In this document: piece after piece, positions 55,430 through 57,917 of the stretch
How positions within the stretch are numbered: position 1 is the stretch's first letter
How the letters are laid out: each line of letters opens with the position of its first letter
DNA from: Heterodera schachtii
Lineage: Eukaryota > Nematoda > Chromadorea > Rhabditida > Heteroderidae
DNA length: 64,000 bases
Direction of reading: 5' to 3'
Assembly (NCBI GenBank): GCA_023374025.1
Contig: SIJG01000044.1
Span: 563,011-627,010 of the forward strand
Notes under the pieces: model-generated
Database searches by the model: none
What the model saw: only the letters and a program-made list of their open reading frames with translations
Told to the model about the DNA's origin: nothing
Position numbers and translations under genes: made by a program

Positions 55430-57917
55430 ATGGCACTTCGACGCATCAAAAAGGTGGCGAAATGACAACTCTCTGATCAGCCAATGCTTTCAATGTTTTG
55501 ATCAATTTGCAGGAACTGGCGGAGCTGGAGAAGGAACCGATCACGGGTTGCACCGCGGCACTGATGGATGACGGCAGAGACTTGTACCATTGGAGGGCCT
55601 CCGGCAATCATGTCGATCATTGGTCCCGAAAATTTTTTTTTTTAATTTTTTCTGAAAATTCTTATAAAATGTTTCTAGGGGTGTTTTGAGGCGCTGAGCA
55701 CGAATCCGACCTCCATTTCGTCCTATTTCCAATCCCGAACCCGAATTCGAACATTTTTCGAATTTTCTTTTTTAATTTCAAAAATCATGAAAACATGTTT
55801 CGGGGGGTTTTCGGGGTCGCTCATCACGAATCCGGCATCCATTTCGACCAATTCCGAACCCCGAACCAGAATTCGAACATTTTTTGAAAATTCAAATTTT
55901 CAATTCTATTGCATAAAGGCACTGCGTTGGACATAAAAAGCGTAAGTTCATGTTAATCTTTGTTTTGTAAACAAATAAAATGATGAATAACAAAGGATTA
56001 CGCATTCACGGGATAATAATAGGCAATTTGATCAACAATGTTTTCGAGTGTGGCTAATGTTTTTTTCCCGTTAAACTGCCTCCACATATACTCGTCACAA
56101 TAACTTGGCAACAATTCTCGGCTTGTTCCGGACATTGCTTTGAACTTCATTTTTAAGTTCTTCCAAAAGCATTCAACGTGATTTGTGTGGGCGCCGGTGA
56201 TCGGATCCACAAAGTTAATCGAATGATTAACAGAGTGGTGGGTGTAGGGTGGGATGACTGGGATCGCAGGAATCACGCCGCCCATGTACGCAGCCCATTG
56301 GTCTGAATGAATCGTCGAGCCCGGCAACACATACTCTTCGATGATTGGCAGCAGCGTGGCACGAGTACGGTCCGGCACAATTCGGACAACACCAATGCCT
56401 GCGTGGACGTCGTAGAGCCCAAATAGCCATATTTCGCGCACCCTATGCCCCCGATGGTACTTTCTGCGTGCCAGTTGTGATTCATCAATTTGAATCACAT
56501 GACCTACCCCTCCCAACCTAAAGGAATTATGAGTAATAAACCGATAACTAATTATAACCGAATGGGGTTGTCAATTAGCCAACGGCTGCAAATTCCTCTG
56601 AAAAAATTGGCCCAATCAATGAGCGCATGCATTCTCAACCCGATCATTTCCGTTTGTGTGTGTAAGGCGATGCCTAGAGGAGACCGGATTCCAATCGCCT
56701 CAAACATAATTTAAATACCAAGCGCCCAGGAATATGCCAACAGCATTCCTTTGCGGAGTTCAAAGTGCGCGTCCTCGAAAAAAGAGCCCGCCCGAATTGA
56801 CACTTTTTGTCCCTTATGTGAAGGACAACGCCACTGACAGTTGTCCATTACAAAGCTGGGATTTTTGACTTGCGTCATTTTCCTCTGGCATCTATCGCCT
56901 CCATCAATCTGTGCAATTTGACGCCCACAGATTGGAGGAATTTGGCGAAGGAGGCCCCGGTTACGCATGTACGCAATGGTATGCTCAGTGGTTTGAAAGT
57001 GTTGGCAAAAATCGAAGATATCCATGGTTATTTGAATTGTTAGCTAAAGGTACTGTGGTTTACTTTGCTAACCATACTAGCGTTATCATCGTTTCAATTT
57101 TTCTTCTGCCTTTGTTATTCATCATTTTATTTTTTAACAATGTTCGAGTTCTGGTTCGGGGTTCGGAATTGGTCGAAATGGATGCCGGATTCGTAATGAG
57201 CGACCCCGAAAACCCCCCGAAACATGTTTTCATGATTTTTGAAATTAAAAAAGAAAATTCGAAAAATGTTCGAATTCGGGTTCGGGATTGGAAATAGGAC
57301 GAAATGGAGGTCGGATTCGTGCTCAGCGCCTCAAAACACCCCTAGAAACATTTTATAAGAATTTTCAGAAAAAATTAAAAAAAAAAATTTTCGGGACCAA
57401 TGATCGACATGATTGCCGGGCCTCCATCGAAGGACCGCCCGAGTCGCCGTACGAAGGAGGCACCTTCCATTTGAACATCGTTTTGCGTCGCGACTACCCA
57501 TGCACTCCGCCAACTGTCAAATTCGTCACCGACATTTACCATCCGAACGTTGGAGAAAGGGGCGACATTTGTTTGGACATTCTGAAGCAGATGTGGGCTC
57601 CAGCGTTGACCATTCAGAAAGGTGAATGAGTGGAAAAACGCCGACAAAATATCGAAAAAACAAAACGACCGCCATAATCAGACTTTTTGGAAAGGTGTCG
57701 ATATTTTGTCGTGTGAAATGGGATTTTTCAAATTCGGAAGTGCCGTTTTAATCTTTATCCCCCTCCCCCTTCAGTGCTGCTCTCCATCTCTTCGCTTCTC
57801 TGTGACCCGAATCCGAACAGTGCGCTGCGGCAGGACATTGCGATTATGTACCGCGACAACCGCGAGGAGTACAACCGAAATGCCCGTGAATGGACGAAGA
57901 ACCACGCGATGATATGA
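55430..57917 (+). CDS. Ubiquitin-conjugating enzyme E2 (UBE2D-like), interrupted by a transposon
   Basis: Coding segments are 55430-55453, 55513-55602, 57426-57621 and 57775-57917. Read without the 1.8-kb insert and one copy of its 8-bp duplication they give an uninterrupted 150-aa E2. The start [17 protein letters not shown], the core [14 protein letters not shown], the IYHPNV motif, the active-site cysteine in [20 protein letters not shown], and [16 protein letters not shown] follow UBE2D. These enzymes pass ubiquitin to RING ligases, including SCF. The insertion falls inside the second exon, after HWRAS, so this allele should not make the enzyme unless the element is spliced out or lost. 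No decay is seen on either side, which suggests a recent event or another functional copy. The polyadenylation-like AATAAA is at 58184. Confidence 0.85.
55603..57417. mobile_element. Complete Merlin-type DNA transposon inserted in a coding exon
   Basis: 1815 bp. The first bases GGCAATCATGTCGATCATTG return as CAATGATCGACATGATTGCC at the right end. The terminal inverted repeats extend over about 278 bp (55603-55880 and 57139-57417) with only a few differences. The 8-bp GGGCCTCC occurs directly at 55595-55602 and 57418-57425. An 8-9-bp duplication, long terminal repeats beginning GG and an IS1016/ISXO2-like transposase are the hallmarks of the Merlin superfamily. The transposase gene lies between the arms on the minus strand. 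The near-identical arms and clean duplication indicate recent activity. Confidence 0.92.
55998..57025 (-). CDS. Merlin (ISXO2/IS1595-like) DDE transposase
   Basis: Three exons, 56719-57025, 56559-56673 and 55998-56517, join in frame to 313 aa. The N-terminal part has [20 protein letters not shown], a C-x-x-x-x-C-like zinc segment and the SIR.GSFFE motif typical of IS1595-like transposases. The catalytic triad reads IQIDESQ (first D), [11 protein letters not shown] (second D) and [12 protein letters not shown] (E). These enzymes cut and rejoin DNA at the terminal repeats. The two introns are short with GT-AG ends. No stop or frameshift is present, so the element looks autonomous. Degenerate relatives lie at 51378 and 53760. 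Confidence 0.88.

Follow-up and report, generated by a model that had tools for sequence, protein, structure and literature searches.

A complete DNA transposon of the Merlin superfamily interrupts exon 2 of a ubiquitin-conjugating enzyme (E2) gene in the stretch of Heterodera schachtii DNA analysed here (64,000 nt, hereafter the window). The reading that we favor, with a probability of about 0.9, is that the element was inserted by cut-and-paste transposition into a divergent, Heterodera-specific E2 gene of the UBE2D type, that the resulting allele is null and that the loss has been tolerated. The insertion is real and ordinary in kind: the Merlin is intact and the exon that it occupies belongs to an E2 that is redundant and lineage-specific. 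The outcome is most likely a loss-of-function allele or a young pseudogene within a birth-and-death family. The features of the locus, in window coordinates, are as follows.

55430-57917 (+): E2 gene, three exons, UBE2D-like
55430-55453 (+): E2 exon 1 (MALRRIKK)
55513-55602 (+): first portion of E2 exon 2, left of the element, up to HWRAS and including the left target copy
55595-55602 (no strand): left target site duplication GGGCCTCC, exact 8 bp, within E2 codons
55603-57417 (-, strand of the transposase): Merlin DNA transposon, 1815 bp, delimited by its flanks and inverted ends
55603-55893 (+): left terminal inverted repeat arm, beginning 5'-GGCAATCATG...
55998-56517 (-): transposase exon 3, with the DDE_Tnp_IS1595 catalytic domain (domain search)
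56559-56673 (-): transposase exon 2 (agrees with homologue P0121)
56719-57025 (-): transposase exon 1 (agrees with homologue P0121)
57127-57417 (-): right terminal inverted repeat arm
57418-57425 (no strand): right target site duplication GGGCCTCC, exact 8 bp
57426-57621 (+): remainder of E2 exon 2, right of the element; the codon for the catalytic Cys is at 57570
57775-57917 (+): E2 exon 3, stop codon 57915-57917

The limits of the element are defined to the base. On both sides, the copies of GGGCCTCC directly abut the inverted ends GGCAATCATG..., and we estimate at about 4^-8 the probability that flanks beside perfect inverted ends would match exactly over 8 bases by chance. The two arms, 291 bp each, show 7 mismatches, six of which are confined to the innermost 22 positions; the outer 222 bp are identical and the outer 269 positions differ at only one. 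A diverged direct repeat with a spacing of 126 bp is present inside the arms.

The element lies between Ser38 and Ile39 of the E2 (W-R-A-S / I-E-G-P-P). Reading through one copy of GGGCCTCC gives a complete protein of 150 residues, with neither stop nor frameshift. This product scores 167.5 bits with the Pfam UQ_con model, has human UBE2D1 as its best match in the PDB (7.2e-55) and carries the UBC domain with catalytic cysteine and HPN motif of the UBE2D class. The intron borders are undamaged, as is the reading frame outside the insertion. The earlier note had described the 8-bp repeat on both sides, the nearly identical arms, the separation of the HWRAS and IEGPP codons within a coding exon and an E2 free of other damage, and each of these observations is borne out.

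Two side observations concern the coding sequence of this E2. An in-frame GT...AG stretch of 39 nt (57549-57587) holds the catalytic Cys codon, and an H. schachtii gene model (P0007) is devoid of the 13 matching residues, which would be due to a faulty annotation, to a genuine deletion or to an exitron removing the active site. By eye, exon 2 of the window gene resembles P0007 and P0001 while exons 1 and 3 resemble the type found in P0003-P0006; this mixed resemblance suggests that gene conversion or recombination between paralogues shaped the window gene.

The open reading frame of the transposase is broken twice, by GT...AG stretches of 45 and 41 nt, and omitting both yields an uninterrupted transposase of 313 residues. 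An H. schachtii gene model, P0121 (93% identical over 84% of the query), has neither stretch, and the alignment, made with 10 of 83 homologues, runs straight across both positions. Since P0121 is continuous there, the two introns are very probably real and the transposase gene intact, judging from the sequences compared. A TAA was considered as a lesion of the gene and rejected, since it falls inside the 45-nt stretch absent from P0121. Hence, the transposase that the earlier note called intact is complete at 313 residues; it is not a single open frame, the two short stretches having to be left out. The product matches PF12762 (DDE_Tnp_IS1595) with 57.8 bits, and its DDE triad (D152, D213, and E256, in QIDES, HSDQW, and HVECF, respectively) aligns with that of relatives. 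A search of Pfam at E up to 1 gave no match to a Zn_Tnp_IS1595 domain.

In the published definition, Merlin elements have terminal inverted repeats of 24-462 bp starting with 5'-GG, target duplications of 8 or 9 bp, a DDE_Tnp_IS1595 domain and no Zn_Tnp domain (PMC8101967). Another source lists Merlin as one of the widespread DNA transposons in plant-parasitic nematodes (PMC11118728). All four features of the definition are found in the element, which belongs to the Merlin superfamily (IS1595/IS1016-type), as the earlier note had stated.

The rest of the genome (178.5 Mb in 356 contigs) contains relatives of the element. At 8 of 12 related loci examined, both ends are recognizable; five of these eight have exact duplications of 8 or 9 bp, one has 8 matching bases out of 9, and two have no exact repeat. 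Among the best 40 of 2843 candidates scored, the longer matches have piecewise identities of 73-91%, those to short parts of the arms go up to 92%, and none exceeds 92%, so that nothing points to a burst under way. Short elements sharing the ends of this Merlin occur in at least 35 places (our own count of the matches listed); six that were measured (L010-L013, L016, and L019) are 558-600 bp long. They are probably non-autonomous relatives of the Merlin element.

The host gene was placed among E2 proteins in a tree of 29 rows (98 of 136 columns). Besides the window E2 and human UBE2D1, the tree holds 13 of 14 genome loci (L035, which stops short of the codon, was left out) and 14 of 120 listed homologues, out of 2294 found. 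Stops were coded as X, and the row of locus L029 carried some first-intron read-through before trimming. The row that clusters with human UBE2D1 is L029, from contig C7 (97/89). This locus (G000:C7:1263101-1263686) has no stop in its matched exons and is, on the evidence of the tree, the intact UBE2D orthologue. The window gene is not in one-to-one orthology to UBE2D/let-70 and falls in a separate clade of 16 rows (95/96), of which every member is from Heterodera: H. trifolii P0001-P0006 and P0008-P0011, H. schachtii P0007, genome loci L022, L023, L024, and L027, and the window gene itself. From its position in the tree, the latter has diverged within an E2 branch that is specific to Heterodera and undergoes duplication. 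In Caenorhabditis elegans, let-70 is essential. The earlier note had assigned the interrupted gene to a normally essential type; this does not apply to the window copy, given the intact UBE2D orthologue on C7 and the Heterodera-specific branch to which the copy belongs.

Within this branch, the four other members found in this genome whose exon 2 is complete all have the catalytic Cys replaced by Phe or Leu (L022, GVLFMD; L023, GAILMD; L024, GALLMD; L027, GALLMD). L023 and L024 are undamaged in the exons examined, exon 1 of L022 (contig C23) contains one base too many, and in L027 (C3) a TGA lies in frame and exon 3 is shifted. Further remnants of the family are found on C31, C27, C220, C2, C108, C137, and C33, with two more on C3. 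The one on C31, L066 (G000:C31:1261541-1262363), is a truncated relative with a 4-nt gap in exon 3; beside it, its 3' part is present a second time in inverted orientation. L024 corresponds closely to the H. schachtii gene niasHS_014323 (P0204): by eye, exon 2 is identical from the first residue, exon 3 agrees at 48 of 49 residues, the odd one being at the exon edge, and the 5' region at 50 of 52. The branch is thus a birth-and-death family with cysteine-less and decayed copies. The catalytic Cys is also lost in H. schachtii P0204 and H. trifolii P0206, and these two proteins, together with the cysteine-less paralogues, read as a UEV-like branch derived from UBE2D.

The search of the genome for a second, uninterrupted copy of the window E2, which the earlier note had suggested, is a lossy one; it found none in the assembly, where the UBE2D orthologue on C7 is intact, and a second haplotype may lie outside the assembly. 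Among the matches listed, the closest other E2 place is 68-69% identical over exon 2. At the DNA level, the best gene-like match to the 5' half is only 90% identical (C23) and that to the 3' half is a piece on C31 with 85% identity and a 4-nt gap in exon 3; neither was retained as another intact copy. At its end, the 3' query has some 40 bases or slightly more that match many places at 82-97% and correspond to a short repeat, not to the gene. No protein more than 89% identical to the read-through E2 was present among the best 120 of 2294 matches. P0007 was considered as the same allele and rejected: its E2 region is 81% identical, or 89% if its gap is left aside, which is too different for a simple allele, and its exons 1 and 3 are of another type. 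Its 5' region is nearly identical in peptide to that of the window gene, with one difference in 44 by eye.

Altogether, the following course of events can be proposed. A Merlin that is complete and potentially self-mobilizing was inserted into exon 2 of the E2, with duplication of 8 bp. Translation of the interrupted gene would then run through 28 codons of the element to a TGA at 55687 and end as a stub of 66 residues that lacks the catalytic cysteine, and the transcript would probably be destroyed by nonsense-mediated decay. With such a stub and such a decay, the allele is expected to be null. The loss of this E2 would be tolerated because the UBE2D orthologue is intact and because duplication in the branch follows a birth-and-death mode; in a family of this kind, a broken copy is not startling.

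The insertion may also be of very recent date and still coexist with an allele that encodes a functional E2, a view in line with the earlier note and compatible with the null-allele reading, to which we give some credit, though we consider it somewhat doubtful. The single difference in the outer 269 positions of the arms speaks for it, as do the otherwise undamaged frame and intron borders of the E2. However, assuming arms identical at insertion and a mutation rate of 2.7e-9, the value for C. elegans, this single difference corresponds to about 7e5 generations with a 95% interval of 1.7e4 to 3.8e6. The age range is thus wide and, in the absence of element matches above 92% among the best 40 of 2843 candidates, the description of the insertion as very recent is stronger than the data allow. 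Also against a segregating allele, the assembly yielded no near-identical uninterrupted E2, and the other H. schachtii annotation provided no close allele among the best 120 of 2294 matches, P0007 standing at the 81% or 89% given above. That only 450 coding bases are free of further damage says little for a young age, and an element that moves by cut-and-paste does not have to leave a sister copy at its former site.

It is much less probable that the element acts as a new intron and is spliced out to leave a working E2, in the manner of introners, which are transposon-derived introns. The E2 frame is open for 84 bases into the left arm and, on the right, back to 57249; phase-0 donors are found at 55612 and 55681, and a phase-0 acceptor, TTTTCAG, is followed by a first exon base at 57369, so that a product kept in frame and longer by 22 or 45 residues (hand count) can be drawn. 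However, by eye the donors (catGTCGAT and gggGTGTTT) look weak, and none of the nine same-offset positions of GGGCCTCC provides a GT-AG or GC-AG pair. Because the repeat offers no GT-AG pair, exact restoration of the E2 by splicing is impossible. What would be left is an imprecise, in-frame exonization via the TTTTCAG before 57369, adding at least 22 residues to the protein, which we regard as quite improbable. Moreover, the homologues compared carry no insert at the site. An ancestral intron at this position was rejected; splicing of the 1.8 kb as an intron in related species was among the findings that the earlier note had named as speaking against its view. In the genome, each of the 17 other places with an E2 match over residues 38-39 shows a single unbroken match across them (two of these places have stops elsewhere), and the 13 homologous proteins aligned, of 120 listed, are all contiguous there. 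Finally, a joining of unrelated contigs at a repeat during assembly, conceivable in the abstract and nothing beyond, can be put aside in view of the exact 8-bp duplication at both ends, of two E2 halves that match, in frame and collinear, and of a 64,000-nt window with no N.

The locus provides a clear case, exact to the base, of a complete Merlin disrupting a coding exon in a plant-parasitic nematode. Of broader interest is the family to which the gene belongs: an E2 that is normally conserved has expanded in one lineage, in which the catalytic site has been lost and pseudogenes have arisen, and this illustrates the redundancy that lets transposons break copies of an otherwise essential gene class. 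A further scenario, in our opinion unlikely, is that cyst nematodes duplicated UBE2D into a branch losing catalysis, of which the sole cysteine-keeping member found here was knocked out by Merlin; under this scenario, the branch may be on its way to ubiquitin adaptors of the UEV-like kind, devoid of catalysis, in this lineage. In the literature, as covered by a non-exhaustive look at titles and the openings of abstracts, nothing was found on this Heterodera E2 family or on a Merlin insertion in it.

Elsewhere in the window, three open frames (50103-50567, 52596-53159, and 63117-63659) look alike by eye in the list of reading frames and are possibly a local gene family. The first and the third are closely alike, sharing FPPDDSANASDGQ, and 52596-53159 is more distant.

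Three known systems can be compared with this locus. Like introners, it shows a transposon with a target duplication inside a coding exon; in contrast to them, the duplication has no splice sites that would restore the frame exactly. With the UBE2D/UbcH5/LET-70 class, the window E2 shares a full-length UBC domain, the HPN motif and the ICLDIL active-site motif with its cysteine, whereas it sits in a Heterodera-only branch of the tree, is interrupted by the element and is 54-61% identical to the non-Heterodera proteins among the best 120 of 2294 matches. Finally, the element resembles the Merlin superfamily (IS1016/IS1595 relatives) in its 5'-GG terminal inverted repeats, 8-bp duplication, DDE_Tnp_IS1595 domain and lack of an N-terminal Zn_Tnp domain. 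It is set apart by the two short introns of its transposase and by long arms of about 290 bp with an internal direct repeat, both of which other Merlins may share.
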